A stretch of DNA of 64,000 nucleotides from Clostridiisalibacter paucivorans DSM 22131 (GTDB taxonomy: Bacteria > Bacillota > Clostridia > Tissierellales > Clostridiisalibacteraceae). Position numbers and translations under genes: made by a program. The notes below the pieces were generated by a model. That model saw only the letters and a program-made list of their open reading frames with translations, did no database searches and was not told the origin of the DNA. This document shows positions 2,074 through 64,000 of the stretch, one piece after another; positions within the stretch are counted from its first letter, which is position 1; the number at the start of each line of letters is the position of its first letter. The stretch is from assembly GCF_000620125.1 (NCBI RefSeq), contig NZ_KK211075.1:15240-79239 (forward strand), in the 5' to 3' direction.

Positions 2074-2102
2074 ATTATATGAATGTATATTAAATTTGTC
2101 AA
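2074..2102 (-). promoter_or_regulatory. Consensus sigma-A promoter of the LarA gene
   Basis: On the minus strand TTGACA (2097-2102), a 17-base spacer and TATAAT (2074-2079), both perfect consensus hexamers. The predicted start near 2067 gives a short leader before the TTG start codon at 2039. Confidence 0.8.
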
Positions 2103-2259: not shown

Positions 2260-2521
2260 AAATAATTTAATATACTAAAGACGATGACAGAAATTAGTAG
2301 TTATTAAGTATTATCCAGAGAGCTGATATTTGGTGAAAGTCAGTTAATGCTTATAGTGAATCTCATTCTCGAGTTGTAGGCTGAATTAATTATAGTAGGT
2401 CTTACCGCAAGATATGCGTTAATATCTCTAAGTGAAAGATTTTTGTTGCTAAAATTCTTTAATTTGGGTGGTACCGCGGATACTATATTCGTCCCTATAT
2501 AATAGTCAGGGGCGTTTTTTT
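2260..2521 (+). promoter_or_regulatory. T-box leader, leucine specifier (CTC)
   Basis: A tRNA-sensing T-box riboswitch. The stem I landmarks AGAGAGCTG and GTGAAAGTCAG are present. The specifier region reads GTGAAT-CTC-ATTCTCGAG; aligned to the known layout GAA-N-codon-AUUCUUGAG of glyQS, this gives CTC (Leu) at 2362-2364. The T-box sequence GGGTGGTACCGCGG lies at 2466-2479 and overlaps the antiterminator. The terminator stem is CGTCCCT (2490-2496) with AGGGGCG (2508-2514), followed by a T run. By family logic, uncharged tRNA-Leu binds and lets transcription continue into the permease gene. A leucine T-box in front of an LctP-type permease is unusual. Confidence 0.9.
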
Positions 2522-2552
2522 ATTACAATTTTATTTTTAAGGGGGAATTAAT

Positions 2553-4025
2553 TTGACAAATGTATTTCTTGCTTCTAGTCCAGTATTATTTGTATTGACA
2601 GGTATGCTTGTATTAAAAAAATCTGCTATGAAGGTAGCGCCAATTGCAATGATTTATACTGCACTATTGGGTTTAATGGCCTTCAATACTAATACCGATA
2701 TTATTTATTCTTCATTTCAAAAGGGTATTCTAGATGGCATTAGAATCGTATGGCTTATATTTGCTGCATTTTCCATGCTCATAATGATGCAAAGCTCTGG
2801 AGCAATGGATAAAATCAAAGAAAGTATAGCAACGATAACCATGGATAAGAGAATCCATGTAATAATAATTGCACTAATGTTTGGTATTTTTTTAGAAGGA
2901 GTAGCTGGTGCTGGAACTCCTGCTGCTATAGCTGCCCCCTTCTTAATAGGACTTGGTTTTAATCCCATAACAGCAGCTACTGCTGCTTTAATGAGCAATA
3001 GTATTCCAGTTTCATGGGGTGGGGCTGGAGTTACTACAGTTATGGGTTCAGAGCCTGTTAGAGAATATATGTCTGTAATGGAAGCATCGGCAATGACTGG
3101 GCGTATACACATGATAGGTGCTTTTTTATTACCGTTTTTAATCGTGTTAGTTATATTTGGTAGAAAGGGATTCAAAGGACTATTCCCATTCCTATTATTC
3201 TCTGGTACCTTTATGGCAGGTACATTATTCATTTTTTCAAACTTTGTAAGTGCTGAAATAACAAGTATGTCCACTGGACTTATATCTATTTTAGCTTCTT
3301 TAATATTTCTAAAAATCAGTCCACCTCATACACCAGAAGAATTTTTGTACAACCCAGAATTCTCTTCAAAAAGTTCTTTACATCCATTGAAGGCATTTTC
3401 TCCATATTTAATTTTAATGGTACTTTTGCCCATTGTTAGATATTCTTTTAGTTTGTCTACATTGGCTAAATATGGATATACTGTATGGGTAGGACTAGTA
3501 ATATTTATTTCAGCACTTTTAGGTGCCTCTATACTAAAGGTATCCTATAAAGAAATGAGCAGTTACTCTAAAACTGCCATCAAAAAAGTAATCCCTGCTT
3601 TAATAGCCATGTGTGGTCTGTTGGCTGTAAGTAATATTATGATTGGAACTGGTATGATGACCTTATTGGCATCAGCCTTGTCTTCTATCGCAGGTATGTT
3701 CTATCCCTTTATTGCAGTGGCAATAGGTTCATTGGGCTCATTCATGACTGGAACAGGACTAGGCTCAAATATTATGTTTGGTCCTATGCATATAGAGGCA
3801 GCCAAAACCTTGGGTCTAAATCCTGTAACCATATTTGCTAGCCAAAATGTAGGGGCAGCTTTAGGTAATATGATATGCCCCAACAATGTAGTAGCTGTTG
3901 CAACTACTGTTAGTATATTAGGAAAAGAAGGAACACTTATGAGAAAAGTATTGCCTTCATTCTTCACCATATTAATAGTTTACGGTTTAGTAGCATTGAT
4001 CTACACCCATATAGTATTTGTCTAA
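2553..4025 (+). CDS. LctP-family permease under T-box control
   Basis: A 490-residue integral membrane protein with about 12-13 hydrophobic segments, belonging to the L-lactate permease (LctP/GlcA) family of proton-coupled hydroxyacid importers. The family signature GAGTPAAIAAPFL occurs near residue 127, and a second conserved block, GSFMTGTGLGSNIMFGP, near 397. Start is TTG, 7 bases after GGGGG. The only regulatory input seen is the leucine T-box and the palindrome upstream. That argues for uptake of a leucine precursor or analogue, such as a branched 2-hydroxyacid, rather than lactate; this is inference. A hairpin terminator follows at once. Confidence 0.8.
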   Translation: MTNVFLASSPVLFVLTGMLVLKKSAMKVAPIAMIYTALLGLMAFNTNTDIIYSSFQKGILDGIRIVWLIFAAFSMLIMMQSSGAMDKIKESIATITMDKRIHVIIIALMFGIFLEGVAGAGTPAAIAAPFLIGLGFNPITAATAALMSNSIPVSWGGAGVTTVMGSEPVREYMSVMEASAMTGRIHMIGAFLLPFLIVLVIFGRKGFKGLFPFLLFSGTFMAGTLFIFSNFVSAEITSMSTGLISILASLIFLKISPPHTPEEFLYNPEFSSKSSLHPLKAFSPYLILMVLLPIVRYSFSLSTLAKYGYTVWVGLVIFISALLGASILKVSYKEMSSYSKTAIKKVIPALIAMCGLLAVSNIMIGTGMMTLLASALSSIAGMFYPFIAVAIGSLGSFMTGTGLGSNIMFGPMHIEAAKTLGLNPVTIFASQNVGAALGNMICPNNVVAVATTVSILGKEGTLMRKVLPSFFTILIVYGLVALIYTHIVFV

Positions 4026-4030
4026 ATCTC

Positions 4031-4072
4031 ATACCTCTTTATTGCTATTTATAAATAGTAATAAAGAGGTAT
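4031..4072. terminator. Shared terminator, permease and Spo0E-like gene
   Basis: A 13-bp perfect stem (ATACCTCTTTATT at 4031-4043, complement at 4060-4072), T-rich on both sides, between two convergent genes. Confidence 0.75.
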
Positions 4073-11515: not shown

Positions 11516-12550
11516 TTACACTTTCGTCACATTGAAGTAGTCTGTAAGTTTAGGAAAATGAATAATTACCTTTGTATATTTACCATATTCTGATTCTATG
11601 GACAGATCATGTCCCAACTTCAATGCCAACCTCTTGGCTAGATATAACCCCAATCCTGTAGACTTATTGTTTTTTCTTCCAATATACCCTGTAAATCCTT
11701 TATTAAAAACTCTACACTTATCTTCCTCTTTTATTCCAATTCCATTATCCTCTATAATCAATAACTTTTCTTTTTTATTTTTCTTTCCATATATATGTAT
11801 TTCTCCATTATGGTCTGTATATTTTAATGCATTGGATAATATCTGACCTATGATAAATTCTAGCCATTTTTCATCACTTATAATATCAAAGTCTACATCA
11901 TCTATGTTTATTTTTATCTTTTTACTTATAAAGGTTTTTGCATGTTTCTTTACCATACCCTTTACAATTCTGTCTAGATTTATTTCATTAATTAGATAAT
12001 CCTTTGAAAATGAGTCTAATCTAGCATAATAAAGCACTTTCTCCACATAATCTTCTATTATATCTAATTCCTCTTCTAAGCTATCTAACACCTGTTCGTC
12101 TGTCCTATTATTTGCATTTTCAATAACTAATCTACTGGCCGATATTGGAGTTTTAATTTCATGTACCCAAGAAGTTACGAACTCTAGATTTTCTATTTTA
12201 TTTTTATACAATTTTTCAAGCCTTTTATCTTGTCCTCTATACATATTCTTCATCAACGACATGTACAGCCCTTGTTCATATGTATTGTGCTTTGGTAGTC
12301 TCTCTACAAGATTATCCTTTGAATATTTGAGTAAATCTATAATGGCTTTATAATACTTTCTACTGCAAAGATACTCTATCATTATATAAATAATAAACAA
12401 AATCAGCGACACTATATTTATATAAAAAATATTCTCACTATGTACACTATAGCTAGGATCCAAATATACAACAGTAGAAATGAAAGTCATCAATATTATA
12501 TAGAATATTATTAAATATTTTTTGTCCATCAAATAATATAATAATCTCAT
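11516..12550 (-). CDS. bceS: BceS-type sensor histidine kinase
   Basis: 344 residues. Two N-terminal membrane helices are separated by a very short outer loop, as in intramembrane-sensing kinases that rely on the BceAB transporter as sensor. The H box is WVHEIKTPIS, the N box is SNALKYT, G1 is DNGIGI, and G2 is STGLGLYLAKRLA. The four-base overlap (ATGA) with the response regulator gene shows coupling. Confidence 0.9.
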   Translation of the reverse strand: MRLLYYLMDKKYLIIFYIILMTFISTVVYLDPSYSVHSENIFYINIVSLILFIIYIMIEYLCSRKYYKAIIDLLKYSKDNLVERLPKHNTYEQGLYMSLMKNMYRGQDKRLEKLYKNKIENLEFVTSWVHEIKTPISASRLVIENANNRTDEQVLDSLEEELDIIEDYVEKVLYYARLDSFSKDYLINEINLDRIVKGMVKKHAKTFISKKIKINIDDVDFDIISDEKWLEFIIGQILSNALKYTDHNGEIHIYGKKNKKEKLLIIEDNGIGIKEEDKCRVFNKGFTGYIGRKNNKSTGLGLYLAKRLALKLGHDLSIESEYGKYTKVIIHFPKLTDYFNVTKV

Positions 12551-13221
12551 TTTATTATATACCCCTGTCCTCTTTTAGTCTCTATAAAATCATTTAGTCC
12601 AATATCAGATAATTTTCTTCTAAGTCTATTGATATTAACAGTAAGAGTATTGTCATCTACAAAGCTTTCATTCTCCCACAGTTTTTGCATTATCTTTTCT
12701 CTTTTTACAACATCACCATTATTTTTCATAAGAATATAAAGTATTCTAAATTCATTTTTAGTAAGCTCTATCTTCTTATCATTGAAAATAACACTACTAT
12801 CTTTTAAATTAAGTACGGCACCACCATACTCTACAACGTCTATGTCAATATTCGTATATGAATATGTCCTTCTCAAAAGTGCATTAATTTTAGCCATCAA
12901 TACATCTAAGGAAAATGGCTTTTGAATAAAATCATCTCCTCCCATATTTACAGACATAATTACATCCATATTTGTATTTCTAGAAGATATAAAAATAACA
13001 GGAACCTTAGACACTTCCCTTATCTTATTACACCAATAAAACCCGTCAAATGCAGGAAGATTTATATCCAGTAATACTAAATGAGGTTTATATTCTATAA
13101 ATATATCAAATATTCTCTCAAATTCTTCTACAACTATTCCTTTATGACCCCATTTTTGTAAGTTTTCAAATATAATATCTCTTATTTTTTTATCGTCCTC
13201 TATAATCATTACCTTAAACAT
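12547..13221 (-). CDS. bceR: BceR-type OmpR-family response regulator
   Basis: 224 residues. The receiver domain has the acidic pair EDD (8-10), phospho-acceptor Asp52 in LLDINLP and Lys in FIQKPF. The winged-helix effector domain (about 125-224) has TVNINRLRRKLSD and ETKRGQGYII. It is expected to activate the bceAB-like genes when the kinase is triggered. The start is ATG with GGAGG upstream. It is the first gene of a transcript running toward lower coordinates, divergent from the epimerase gene. Confidence 0.92.
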   Translation of the reverse strand: MFKVMIIEDDKKIRDIIFENLQKWGHKGIVVEEFERIFDIFIEYKPHLVLLDINLPAFDGFYWCNKIREVSKVPVIFISSRNTNMDVIMSVNMGGDDFIQKPFSLDVLMAKINALLRRTYSYTNIDIDVVEYGGAVLNLKDSSVIFNDKKIELTKNEFRILYILMKNNGDVVKREKIMQKLWENESFVDDNTLTVNINRLRRKLSDIGLNDFIETKRGQGYIIK

Positions 13222-13465
13222 ATATTTACCTCCACTTTCACCAATAATTAAAACTACTTACTATTATATACCATTTTTATATACCACATAATGATTTACA
13301 AAAAAGTTTAAGACCTTGAAAAATATAACTAATATTTTTATAAATATTCATAATCTTTAAAATTCCATTGACTTATTATTTAACTAATAGTAAAATAGAC
13401 GCAATATATTTAAATATTTGTTAAATAATCCATGGTTAAATATTATTATAAGGAGGTTGTTAAAA

Positions 13466-14530
13466 TTGAAAATCACTAATGTAAAAATTGAAAAACTTCA
13501 ATTGCAATTACATAAGCCCTTTAAGATTGCCCTTGGAGTTATCGAACATGTCCATACGGTTATTGTAAAGATTGAGACAGATGAGGGGGTGTACGGTATT
13601 GGAGAAGGAGCACCCATGGAGTTTGTTACTGGGGAGAGCTTAGATCATATAATATTATCTATAGGTATCCTTGAAAAACAAATCATAGGTCAAAACCCTT
13701 TAGATATTGAGAAAATTCACAATATAATGAATTCTACTCTATCCAAGAACACTGGTGCTAAGGCCGCTATAGATATAGCATTGCATGATATTAAAGGAAA
13801 AGTTATGAATGCACCTCTCTATAGAGTTTTAGGAGGTAATTCAAACAATTTTGAAACTGATATCACTATAGGTATTTCTTCTCCTTCTGAAATGGCAAAA
13901 GAAGCCAAGGAAAGAATAGACCAGGGATTCAAAGTGCTAAAAATTAAAGCTGGATTAAATCCAGAGCAAGATATTGAAGCTATTAAACTGATTAGACAAT
14001 CCATAGGAAATGATATTAGATTAAGAATGGATGCAAACCAAGGATGGACTGTTTCACAATCTGTTAAGGTAATGAAGGCTGTAGAAACATATGGTGTGGA
14101 AGCTGTAGAACAACCTTTGCCCTATTGGGATATAGAAGGAATGAAATCAATAAGAGATAAGGTCGACATAATGGTAATGGCTGATGAAACTGTCTTTTCA
14201 CCTAATGATGCAATAAAAATAGTTAAAAATAGCTGTGCAGATATAATAAATATTAAATTAATGAAAAGTGGGGGGATATATGCTGGAGAAAAAATCAACG
14301 CTATTAGTGAATCTGCTGGTATAAGATGTATGGTTGGATGCATGCTTGAAAGTAAAATTGCTATTACAGCAGGAGCTAGTCTAGTAGCATCAAAGAAAAA
14401 TATAACTGAAGCAGATATGGACAGCTTTTTATATGTTAAGGACCCTGGTATAGATGGAGGGCTAATACTGGAAAAAGGTATAATCACCCTTCCTGATAAA
14501 CCAGGATTAGGTATATCCATTGATTTTTAA
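13466..14530 (+). CDS. L-Ala-D/L-Glu-type dipeptide epimerase (enolase superfamily)
   Basis: 354 residues. The muconate-lactonizing subgroup catalytic set is complete: K159-x-K161, metal ligands D189 (in DAN), E215 and D240 (in DET), and K267 in KSGG. These positions agree closely with B. subtilis YkfB, which epimerises murein-derived dipeptides. The TTG start at 13466 is 9 bases from AGGAGG; an in-frame ATG at 13418 has no such site. It is first in an apparent operon with a DUF819 membrane protein and an S15-type hydrolase, which suggests use of peptides or cell-wall dipeptides (inference). Confidence 0.88.
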   Translation: MKITNVKIEKLQLQLHKPFKIALGVIEHVHTVIVKIETDEGVYGIGEGAPMEFVTGESLDHIILSIGILEKQIIGQNPLDIEKIHNIMNSTLSKNTGAKAAIDIALHDIKGKVMNAPLYRVLGGNSNNFETDITIGISSPSEMAKEAKERIDQGFKVLKIKAGLNPEQDIEAIKLIRQSIGNDIRLRMDANQGWTVSQSVKVMKAVETYGVEAVEQPLPYWDIEGMKSIRDKVDIMVMADETVFSPNDAIKIVKNSCADIINIKLMKSGGIYAGEKINAISESAGIRCMVGCMLESKIAITAGASLVASKKNITEADMDSFLYVKDPGIDGGLILEKGIITLPDKPGLGISIDF

Positions 14531-14551
14531 ATAATTAATATATAAAAAATA

Positions 14552-14600
14552 TATTAAAGCAATTTGCTTCCTAAATCTCTAGAAGTAGGTTGCTTTAATA
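14552..14600 (+). terminator. Intra-operon hairpin after the epimerase gene
   Basis: TATTAAAGCAA (14552-14562) pairs with TTGCTTTAATA (14590-14600), and an inner CTTC/GAAG adds to the stem. It is followed by AAAATT rather than a T run, so it may weaken or process the transcript rather than end it. Confidence 0.45.
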
Positions 14601-14636
14601 ATAAAATTAAAATCTATCTAATAAAGGAGAGAAATT

Positions 14637-15797
14637 ATGAATACAGTTTTTACTAGTACAGGAAGCTTATTAGCAATTATAGCATTTATTATAGCATTGG
14701 GTCTATATGTACAAAAGTTCAAGGCATTTAAAAGCCTAGGTCCAGCATTAACTGTAATAATATTTGGCATAATACTTTCAAACTTAAAAATTGTCCCCAC
14801 AATGGCAGATGTATATGGTGTTATTTTTCAATACGCCATTCCTCTATCAATGACAATGATGTTATTAAATGTTGATTTGAGCAAAATGTTAAAATTATCT
14901 AAACAGCCATTACTAGCTATGTTATTTGCCGTATTGAGTATCGGCATTGTTGCCTTTTTAACTGGCCTTATATTTGCTCCTAAACTAGATGAAGGATGGA
15001 AAATGGCAGGTATGTTTGTAGGTACTTATACTGGTGGAAGCTCTAACTTAACTGCTATTGGAACAGGTTTAAAGGCAAGCCCTGAAACATTTGCAGCAGC
15101 CAATGCCGCTGATTATGTAATAGGTATGCCAACACTAATATTTTTATTTGCAGCACCAGCTATACTTAAGAAATCAAAAAAATTCAAAAAATTCTGGCCT
15201 TATTCTTTAAATGAAAACGAACTTATAGGGGATGATCATGAAGAATTAATGAGTGACAAAAAGTGGAGCATAAAAGATATTTCATGGTTGTTTGCTATAG
15301 GATTTATAGTTACTGAAGTATCTACATTATTATCCAAAATGGCACCGGATACTATGCAGAGTGCAGTAAGAATACTTTTCATAACCACTATAGCAATAGC
15401 AATAGCCCAAATTAAACCTATAAAACAAATAAAGGGCAGCATAGATTTGGGATTATTTATCGCATTGTTTTTCCTAGCTATTATTGGTTTTATGGTTAAT
15501 TTGAAAGATTTTTTCGGTTCAACTATGCTTATTGCTGTATACTTAATATTAGTAGTGATATTATCATTGTCTCTTCATTTATTACTATGTAGATTGTTTA
15601 AAATCAAGTACCAATATGTAGTTGTATCCATAGTAGCTGCTATTTCAGATGGTGCCACATCAGCATTAGTTGCTGCTTCTGCTCAATGGAAGTCCCTAGT
15701 AAGTATAGGAGTTGTATTAGGTGCTCTAGGAAATGCACTGGGCAATTATTTAGGCATATCTGTAGCCTATCTATTGAGAAGTATCATTGGAGGATAA
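14637..15797 (+). CDS. DUF819 (YjcL-like) membrane protein
   Basis: 386 residues with about eleven hydrophobic segments. It matches the DUF819 family, for which no transport activity was known to me. Landmarks are GTYTGGSSNLTAIGTGL near residue 131 and SDGATSALVAASAQWKS near 338; these internal sequence-similar blocks look like an inverted-repeat carrier fold. Start is ATG after AAAGGAG. Its place between a dipeptide epimerase and a peptidase-like hydrolase makes a dipeptide or amino-acid carrier a reasonable hypothesis. Confidence 0.8.
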   Translation: MNTVFTSTGSLLAIIAFIIALGLYVQKFKAFKSLGPALTVIIFGIILSNLKIVPTMADVYGVIFQYAIPLSMTMMLLNVDLSKMLKLSKQPLLAMLFAVLSIGIVAFLTGLIFAPKLDEGWKMAGMFVGTYTGGSSNLTAIGTGLKASPETFAAANAADYVIGMPTLIFLFAAPAILKKSKKFKKFWPYSLNENELIGDDHEELMSDKKWSIKDISWLFAIGFIVTEVSTLLSKMAPDTMQSAVRILFITTIAIAIAQIKPIKQIKGSIDLGLFIALFFLAIIGFMVNLKDFFGSTMLIAVYLILVVILSLSLHLLLCRLFKIKYQYVVVSIVAAISDGATSALVAASAQWKSLVSIGVVLGALGNALGNYLGISVAYLLRSIIGG

Positions 15798-62028: not shown

Positions 62029-63600
62029 ATGAAAATCCGAGATATTATGACTCCTTTAAAGAGCAATAAGCACATAGTAGATGGTATAAATGGAAATACT
62101 GACATATACTCTCTAGGCAACAAATATAAAACTTTTAGTAATTCTACTTTAGAAATTATCGATAACCAAAGTTATAAAATTGGAGAATTAAATAAAGAAT
62201 TATTGTCTTATATCATTAGTACATCTAATAAATACATAACTAACGATATTTTAAATAAAATTGAAGATGGTGTTGTAGCTATTGATGCAAAAGGTAAGAT
62301 TTTTTTTGCAAATCATGCCTATTCTAAAATCTTAGGAGTTCCAATATGCAAAATCATAGGAAAATCAATGCAAAAAATAGAACCAGGAGCAGCAATATTA
62401 GATGTGTTACAAACAAAAACACCTATTAATAAGGAGAAACAATATATTGAATCCTTAGATAAATATGTTTCTGTTAGAATATATCCAATTAAACAAAATG
62501 GTGCATTAGGTGGAGCAGTATCAATTTTTACCGATACCACAGAATTGATTAAATTGAATAAAGAAGTAGAAAGAGCCAATGAAGTTGCTGTATGTTTCCA
62601 AAAACAGGTAGAAGCTCAACAAGAACTATCAAAATTAAAAATCATAGGAAAAAGCCCTAATTTTTTAAAGGTAGTTTCTCAAGCACTGGTTGTTTCAAAA
62701 ACACAAGCTTCAGTATTAATTAGAGGGGAAAATGGTTCTGGAAAAGAGATGATTGCAAAAATTGTGCATTCCAATAGTCAAAGAAAAGATCGCCCAATCA
62801 TTACCGTCAATTGTGCAGCCATCCCTGAAAATCTTATAGAGAGTGAACTTTTCGGATATGAAGAAGGTGCTTTTACAGGCGCAAAGCATGGTGGGCAAAT
62901 GGGGAAATTTGAATTAGCCAGTGGAGGAACTTTGTTCCTTGATGAAATAGGAGACATGCCTATAACTATGCAATCAAAACTATTAAGGGTATTGCAAGAA
63001 GGAGAAATTGAAAAGATTGGAAGACAAAAAAATATACCTGTAGATGTTCGCCTTATTACTGCAACAAATCAACCCTTGGAAAAAATGATTAATGAAAAAA
63101 AGTTTAGAGAAGATCTGTATTACAGATTAAATATTGTAGAGATTCAAATACCTCCTTTAAGAAATCGTAAAGAAGATATAGGATTGTTAGCAAGCTATTT
63201 CTTAGAAATTTATAACAATAAATATGAAAAATCAATATCTTTTTCTCAAGAGATACTTTCCTTTTTTCATTCTTATAATTGGCCTGGGAATGTTCGTGAA
63301 ATGAAAAATTGTATAGAACATGCTGTTATTATGTGTTTAGATGATACATTCAAACTAAAACACTTGCCTCCCCACATAAATAAAACAATTAGTAATACTA
63401 CAATTAAAGAAAAAAATATATCCTTATATACATATGGAACCTTACAACAAGAAGTTAAAGATTTAGAAAAGAAAATAATCACTGAAGCAATTGCATCTAG
63501 CAAAAATAACAAAAGTAAAGCAATGAAATTATTAGGAATAAGTAGAAGAACCTTTTATCGCAAGTTAAAGGAATATGGAATAAATAGTGCCAAAAAGTAA
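62029..63600 (+). CDS. Sigma-54 activator (PAS-AAA-Fis) of the HMG-CoA-lyase-type operon
   Basis: 523 residues. The first 65 residues begin MKIRDIMTPLKSNKHIVDG, like the opening of a CBS domain, but are too short for a pair. A PAS domain (about 75-190) contains KIEDGVVAIDAKGKIFFANH. The AAA+ core has GENGSGKE and a canonical GAFTGA loop, and the C-terminal Fis domain is AMKLLGISRRTFYRKL. AAAGGGG before the ATG. A sigma-54 promoter follows 138 bases downstream of its stop codon, so it most likely controls the next operon. Confidence 0.88.
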   Translation: MKIRDIMTPLKSNKHIVDGINGNTDIYSLGNKYKTFSNSTLEIIDNQSYKIGELNKELLSYIISTSNKYITNDILNKIEDGVVAIDAKGKIFFANHAYSKILGVPICKIIGKSMQKIEPGAAILDVLQTKTPINKEKQYIESLDKYVSVRIYPIKQNGALGGAVSIFTDTTELIKLNKEVERANEVAVCFQKQVEAQQELSKLKIIGKSPNFLKVVSQALVVSKTQASVLIRGENGSGKEMIAKIVHSNSQRKDRPIITVNCAAIPENLIESELFGYEEGAFTGAKHGGQMGKFELASGGTLFLDEIGDMPITMQSKLLRVLQEGEIEKIGRQKNIPVDVRLITATNQPLEKMINEKKFREDLYYRLNIVEIQIPPLRNRKEDIGLLASYFLEIYNNKYEKSISFSQEILSFFHSYNWPGNVREMKNCIEHAVIMCLDDTFKLKHLPPHINKTISNTTIKEKNISLYTYGTLQQEVKDLEKKIITEAIASSKNNKSKAMKLLGISRRTFYRKLKEYGINSAKK

Positions 63601-63618
63601 ACATATGTGCCTTAAAGT

Positions 63619-63650
63619 AAACAGGATTTTCATACAATCCTGTTTTTTAT
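63619..63650 (+). terminator. Terminator of the fourth sigma-54 activator gene
   Basis: AAACAGGAT and ATCCTGTTT around a 9-base loop, then TTTAT. Confidence 0.8.
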
Positions 63651-63738
63651 ATCAAAAGTATACAGTTTTATTTTAACCTGCTTTTATTAAACCAGTGAAA
63701 ACCCCTTACTATACATAATTCTATAGTCTTTAAAATTC

Positions 63739-63754
63739 TGGCATGGATATTGCT
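63739..63754 (+). promoter_or_regulatory. Sigma-54 promoter at the window end
   Basis: TGGCAT-GGATA-TTGCT, a close match to the -24/-12 consensus, 142 bases before the start of the truncated lyase gene. The long leader (63755-63895) holds nothing I can name. Confidence 0.85.
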
Positions 63755-63895
63755 ATTTATATATAGAAAAAAGGAGGAAAAGAAATAACTTAAAATTTGG
63801 AAAATTATAAATATAGATGCCTAAAAATACTAGACCGTTTAATTTCCTTGAAATAGTCTATTAAAGGTAGCATTATAAAAATGGGAGTGATATCT

Positions 63896-64000
63896 ATGAA
63901 AGAAGATGTATTAATCCAAATACAAGAAGTTGGTCCCCGTGATGGCTTACAAAATGAAAAAGTCATTTTAGATACAGAATCTAAAATAAAGCTAATAGAC
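63896..64000 (+). CDS. Hydroxymethylglutaryl-CoA lyase-like gene (truncated by window end)
   Basis: 35 codons from ATG 63896 after GGGAGTG; the frame is open to base 64000. The peptide contains IQIQEVGPRDGLQNEKVIL. The EVGPRDGLQNE block is the N-terminal signature of HMG-CoA lyase and related DRE-TIM enzymes, with the catalytic Arg-Asp. It would split a 3-hydroxy-3-methylacyl-CoA, as in leucine or branched-acid breakdown. It is the first gene behind the sigma-54 promoter. Confidence 0.85.
   Translation, partial: MKEDVLIQIQEVGPRDGLQNEKVILDTESKIKLID

Follow-up and report, generated by a model that had tools for sequence, protein, structure and literature searches.

A leucine-specific T-box leader controls an LctP-family permease gene beside a LarAH10-like racemase gene in Clostridiisalibacter paucivorans

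Results

A T-box leader precedes a single permease gene

The window analysed here comprises 64,000 nt of contig NZ_KK211075.1 from the genome of Clostridiisalibacter paucivorans DSM 22131 (G000; completeness rating 99%). It contains a single T-box leader, a tRNA-sensing riboswitch of the class I transcriptional type, at 2275-2499 on the forward strand. The match to RF00230 found by cmscan covered the full model (positions 1-219 of 219) and scored 137.1 bits (E 2e-30; gathering score 93 bits). The covariance-model alignment placed the specifier CUC (Leu) at 2362-2364 (+), in a specifier loop whose 3' side reads GAA-U-CUC-A and is followed by the lower specifier helix UUCU. It also located the T-box sequence UGGU at 2469-2472 (+), which base-pairs with A73 and the ACCA end of the tRNA. 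The antiterminator (2466-2495, +) was delimited by this alignment together with a base comparison over 21 leaders, and it overlaps a competing intrinsic terminator at 2490-2521 (+), which consists of CGUCCCUAUAUAAUAGUCAGGGGCG and a T-run. The terminator folded at -9.8 kcal/mol (z -3.6), and none of 200 shuffles folded equally well. With a full-length match and with UGGU, antiterminator and terminator all located, the initial annotation was right that the T-box landmarks are present. Its suggestion to check the specifier by folding stem I had a divided outcome: the covariance-model match confirmed CUC, but the energy of stem I folded alone was no better than that of shuffles (z +0.3). The support for stem I is the covariance-model match, not energy.

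A putative promoter for the T-box transcript, TTGAAT-18-TATAAT (2224-2253, +), ends 21 bases before the leader; it is only suggestive, since the consensus scan that found it performed overall at chance level. Downstream of the leader, a ribosome binding site AGGGGG (2540-2545, +), recognised from the sequence, precedes a gene for an LctP-family carboxylate permease of 490 aa with a TTG start at 2553 (2553-4025, +; PF02652). This gene is followed by a strong terminator-like hairpin (4031-4072, +; 19-bp stem, -23.2 kcal/mol, z -8.9), and therefore the T-box leader controls a single gene. A leucine T-box with this permease as its regulated gene is, in our judgement, nearly certain and as good as sequence can establish.

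The specifier reads leucine

The codon assignment depends on the reading frame, and here the adjacent frames on both sides are serine codons (UCU and UCA), which would place the gene in serine metabolism. We applied a frame rule, under which the specifier is three bases followed by one base and then the helix, to the 20 other T-boxes of the genome. The rule gave the cognate amino acid in all 17 leaders with an informative downstream gene: leuS CUC, valS GUA, argS AGA, ileS AUC, serS UCC, metG AUG, asnS and asnA AAC, alaS GCU, tyrS UAC, thrS ACU, glyQ GGA, pheS UUC, proS CCC, trpB UGG, cysE UGC and ilvNCB AUC. Gene identities were taken from NCBIfam, except that ilvN and ilvCB were identified by reading the sequence and that ileS, a partial sequence, scored slightly below the cut-off. 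The hisS leader reads GAC, which fits a putative hisS-aspS operon, and the two uninformative leaders, with Trp and Ile specifiers, precede transporter genes.

The discriminator base provides a second criterion, which is also applied in TBDB (PMC7778990). The base 3' of UGG is U in the lctP and leuS leaders, C in the serS leader, and A in the cysE, thrS and glyQ leaders. UGGC in the serS leader fits G73, and UGGU in the lctP leader fits A73 of tRNA-Leu; a tRNA-Leu(GAG) gene was found on contig C2. The frame rule, the discriminator base, this tRNA and the use of CUC by leuS as well together identify the specifier as leucine, as had first been proposed from the alignment to CTC. The serine reading was rejected on the first two of these, and a related leader in a genome of another family (G039, see below) shares with the lctP leader only one codon in any single frame, CUC. 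Serine is therefore very unlikely on sequence grounds, and the structural alignment, which had been named as a possible refuter should it move the specifier to TCT, kept CUC.

A LarAH10-like racemase gene is divergent to the T-box

Divergent to the T-box lies a gene that the initial annotation had not included (753-2039, -; PF09861 and PF21113). It encodes a predicted 2-hydroxyacid racemase of the LarA superfamily of nickel-pincer enzymes. A putative promoter at 2074-2102 (-), TTGACA-17-TATAAT, agrees with the consensus at 12 of 12 positions, although the scan overall was at chance level. In the NCBIfam ranking, LarAH10 (NF052525, 502 bits) came before malate racemase (425) and lactate racemase (344). 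Since 502 bits lies below the NF052525 cut-off of 540, we call the protein LarAH10-like and not LarAH10. Both Lar_N and LarA_C are present, as are the conserved His/Lys motifs of the catalytic site; alignment to solved LarA structures showed that SHRKQ, FHLLAGWGGGKKS and ANHAL are kept, and these catalytic-site motifs are common to the LarAH10 group, its best family match (PMC11770544). The pocket motif is HLL, as against HFF in the genome's own lactate racemase. LarAH10 enzymes racemise 2-hydroxyacids with hydrophobic side chains, including 2-hydroxyisocaproate, although the members characterised so far act on it only weakly and favour unbranched side chains; the authors regard the native substrates of part of the group as still unidentified (PMC11770544).

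Elsewhere, LarAH10-like genes share operons with an aminotransferase gene and amino-acid-type ABC transporters, with genes for SSF symporters or with etfBA-lctD. A second LarAH10-like gene of C. paucivorans, 51% identical, lies on contig C13 (L113 3400-7971), after genes for an alanine-racemase-N protein, a family-3 solute-binding protein and a class I/II aminotransferase. Comparable racemase-ABC-aminotransferase operons were seen in G376, G354, G514 and G388. In G008:C157 (L117) and G024:C47 (L116), a LarAH10-like gene is directly preceded by an SSF symporter gene that has no T-box.

The pairing of a leucine T-box with this racemase recurs in G039. There, the gene for a racemase 67% identical to that of C. 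paucivorans lies divergent to a T-box leader (141.7 bits), and under the control of this leader is a gene for an SSF (sodium-solute) symporter, to which the symporters of G008:C157 and G024:C47 are 70% identical. In the +0 frame the G039 leader reads CUC, though the next base is C and not the usual purine, and in the +1 frame it reads UCC. Of the 22 leaders compared, that of G039 was nearest to the lctP leader (61%, compared with 57% for leuS of C. paucivorans). The two leaders are sisters (support 0.91), and the racemases of C. paucivorans, contig C97 of G008 and G039 form one clade (support 0.94). Even the DNA between the racemase start and the leader could be aligned between C. paucivorans and G039 (score 45, against 24 +/- 3.4 in shuffles), though promoter elements common to both may account for part of the similarity. 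Taking about 21 leaders per 3 Mb, 2 of 21 of them leucine-specific, and about 17 racemase loci examined, we estimated by hand that the chance of any leucine T-box within 500 bases of those loci is well under 1%. Since the symporter is unrelated to LctP, the T-box goes with the racemase and not with the transporter type. A T-box near a LarAH10-like gene in G388 was rejected as a further leucine link: its specifier is AUC (Ile), its target is brnQ, and it is about 2 kb distant from the LarAH10-like gene. This isoleucine T-box (L136 3608-3862, -) is located just downstream of two tRNA genes.

The permease is distinct from lactate-operon permeases

LctP-family proteins are carboxylate carriers, and LctP permeases are usually annotated as lactate carriers. 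The protein encoded behind the T-box matched PF02652 with E 8e-94 (316 bits; gathering score 27), in agreement with its first description as an LctP-type permease. Against TIGR00795 it scored only 305 bits, below the cut-off of 341, which a paralogue in a separate lactate operon of the same genome exceeded with 461. The two permeases are about 30% identical, and in a tree the T-box permease grouped with L022-L030 in a clade apart from the lactate-operon permeases. In this clade the signature motif contains AGAG, in contrast to AG[FY]G or TGFG in every other permease sampled.

No relative with a solved structure was found for the permease by sequence search. Its predicted structure (pLDDT 85.6) has the fold of IT-superfamily carboxylate transporters (best Z 25.6), and the nearest structures were an MleN model and the NaS1, NaDC and INDY structures (Z about 20-26). 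In the prediction AGAG is located at a helix break, and we infer that its small residue gives room for a larger side chain.

This permease subfamily is rare: at E <= 1e-60 it occurred in only three genomes of the order, and in no other among 391 genomes of the class. The closest relatives are those of G008 and G024, in the same order (72% identity), and that of L023 (67%), after which identity drops to 42-45%. No T-box precedes the permease gene in any of these, and no T-box remnant was found in L022 at E up to 10. In G008 the permease gene is likewise divergent to a LarAH10-like gene. The L023 gene comes after genes read as LutB/LutC-like lactate-oxidation genes, and the 42-45% relatives come after a propionyl-CoA-transferase-like gene, a layout known from the lactate-induced acrylate cluster (PMC8914356). 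Given these lactate-type contexts, lactate is perhaps also carried.

Lactate utilisation and leucine metabolism in the genome

The T-box locus was also considered as a lactate-utilisation locus and rejected, the true one being on contig C8. The operon there comprises genes for a GntR/FCD regulator and an FeFe-hydrogenase-like protein, lctP, larA, etfB, etfA, the GlcD-like lctD and a pyruvate-carboxylase-like gene; the operon lacks a T-box. Its larA exceeds the NF033504 cut-off (663 against 460). The FeFe-hydrogenase-like iron-sulfur protein is encoded between the regulator and lctP (L071 6499-7896). The operon agrees with the lct operon that is lactate-induced in gut bacteria (PMC8914356).

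The standard route to leucine could not be detected. In a profile search of the genome, no LeuA scored above the cut-off, and LeuC and LeuD (3-isopropylmalate dehydratase) were not found. The only PF00330 protein is a true aconitase (977 bits against 612), and thus LeuC is absent; the four PF00682 proteins comprise one of NifV type, one HMG-CoA lyase and two that are carboxylase-type by position. Leucine synthesis thus looks absent, although ilvN, ilvC and ilvB are present under an isoleucine T-box. Contig C16 carries a 2-hydroxyacyl-CoA dehydratase set with an activator and a CoA-transferase, nearest to HadB/HadC but below the equivalog cut-offs, and on contig C9 brnQ adjoins a D-2-hydroxyacid dehydrogenase gene. 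These genes, with LeuC and LeuA missing, suggest that the cell handles 2-hydroxyacids of amino-acid origin and depends on leucine from outside.

Discussion

In its class I leader, CUC specifier, UGGU and terminator/antiterminator pair, the leader resembles the leucine T-boxes of Bacillus subtilis ilv-leu (CUC) and yvbW. Leucine T-boxes before transporter genes are known for the APC-type yvbW and for NSS transporters in the B. cereus group (PMC2494555); the difference here is that the regulated gene encodes an LctP permease beside a predicted 2-hydroxyacid racemase. A 2008 in silico survey listed ABC, APC, DAACS, LIVCS, MFS, NHAC and NSS as T-box-controlled transporter families, without LctP (PMC2494555), and we found no pairing of a T-box with a lactate permease in the literature searched, which mostly excluded subscription papers and database entries. 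LctP is paired with LarA in the lct operon of Acetobacterium and Anaerobutyricum (lctA regulator, etfBA, lctD, lctE permease, lctF racemase; PMC8914356). The T-box locus differs from it in lacking etf and lctD, in having a LarAH10-like enzyme instead of LarA, in its divergent orientation, and in tRNA-Leu control instead of GntR/LutR-type control.

The best reading is that 2-hydroxyisocaproate, or 2-ketoisocaproate, is salvaged for leucine. Behind it are the leucine specifier, the racemase, a lactate operon elsewhere in the genome, the lack of a detected leucine pathway and the parallel case of G039. The permease probably carries a leucine analogue of the 2-hydroxy or 2-keto acid type. The initial annotation had preferred a branched 2-hydroxy or 2-keto acid to lactate as cargo, and indirect evidence favours this view, somewhat better than evenly: a divergent LarAH10-like racemase, a lactate operon elsewhere, the missing LeuC and LeuA, and the leucine T-box/racemase pair of G039. 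That the locus serves as a leucine-starvation switch for hydroxy-acid salvage seems about equally probable.

From known T-box biology, uncharged tRNA-Leu(GAG) would at low leucine pair with the specifier and with UGGU in the bulge; the antiterminator would then form and the permease gene be transcribed, and charged tRNA would leave the terminator in place. The permease would import 2-hydroxyisocaproate (or 2-ketoisocaproate), possibly released by leucine-fermenting neighbours. The racemase, expressed from its own promoter, would interconvert the L- and D-forms, a D-2-hydroxyacid dehydrogenase would convert the D-form to 2-ketoisocaproate, and an aminotransferase would turn this into leucine. 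Such salvage would be needed because the isopropylmalate route to leucine is undetectable in this genome.

Other cargoes have to be weighed against this. A leucine T-box could also govern an importer of lactate or of short 2-hydroxyacids in general, feeding for instance pyruvate and acetyl-CoA or energy metabolism at times of low leucine. The closest relatives without a T-box, next to LutB/C-like or propionyl-CoA-transferase-like genes, would fit this, as would the LP-IV-C permeases of Anaerotignum and Coprococcus, which are lactate-type (PMC8914356). We nevertheless think it rather unlikely: the complete lactate operon has its own permease and racemase free of T-box control, the neighbouring racemase is nearest to LarAH10 and not to LarA, and without isopropylmalate enzymes there is no standard route from lactate carbon to leucine. 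A slightly less plausible alternative is that only a keto or fatty acid analogue is carried, such as 2-ketoisocaproate, or isovalerate for reductive carboxylation, with the racemase unrelated. This agrees with a T-box that indicates leucine and with a racemase gene lying outside the T-box transcript under its own perfect putative promoter. However, G039 has the same pairing but another transporter, and racemase and permease remain adjacent in G008, so the racemase looks functionally linked. Import of leucine itself seems quite improbable for a member of a family of carboxylate carriers, with a predicted fold nearest to MleN, INDY, NaDC and other organic-anion carriers, in a genome that has BrnQ. 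In its favour, the cargo of most T-box-controlled transporters is the amino acid that the specifier encodes (PMC2494555).

We retain the salvage of 2-hydroxyisocaproate (or 2-ketoisocaproate) as the preferred reading. A broader, tentative proposal, to which we give slightly less than even credence, is a salvage cassette in which the leucine T-box and a nickel-pincer racemase dedicated to 2-hydroxyisocaproate remain together, with an exchangeable importer (LctP in one family, an SSF symporter in another). With it, bacteria lacking the leucine pathway would sense uncharged tRNA-Leu and scavenge racemic leucic acid that amino-acid fermenters release. A T-box specifier gives a strong hint of the substrate that a transporter carries in vivo, and here it links an LctP permease to leucine metabolism. 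The pairing with a leucine T-box suggests a leucine-derived native substrate for the LarAH10-like racemase and, with the G039 case, a natural function for orphan racemases of the LarAH10 type, whose real substrates the LarA field has yet to settle. If the reading is true, amino acids can be salvaged through their hydroxy-acid analogues under direct tRNA control, and there would be a cross-feeding route from leucine fermenters to leucine auxotrophs.

Additional observations

Other T-boxes of the genome also deserve mention. An isoleucine (AUC) T-box (G000:C16:19044-19289, L020) precedes a gene of the sodium:neurotransmitter-symporter family, pointing to an isoleucine or branched-chain transporter. 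A tryptophan (UGG) T-box (G000:C11:17441-17706, L006) precedes the gene of a TrpP-like membrane protein (173 aa), for which NCBIfam gave no match. The T-boxes of glyQS (G000:C2:12380-12555, L018) and proS (G000:C17:28261-28433, L021) are about 40-50 bases shorter than the others, and in that of glyQS 40 positions of the model are missing between stems I and III.

Within the window, a CRISPR direct repeat (RF01315) lies at the edge (5-34), and the contig just upstream (about 12446-15271) consists of N. At the other end, positions 62029-64000 together with L085 carry a row of genes for a sigma-54-type activator, HMG-CoA lyase, an HMG-CoA-reductase-like protein and a TctA-like transporter. This row, in which the HMM check covered the lyase only, is possibly a cluster for mevalonate/HMG catabolism.
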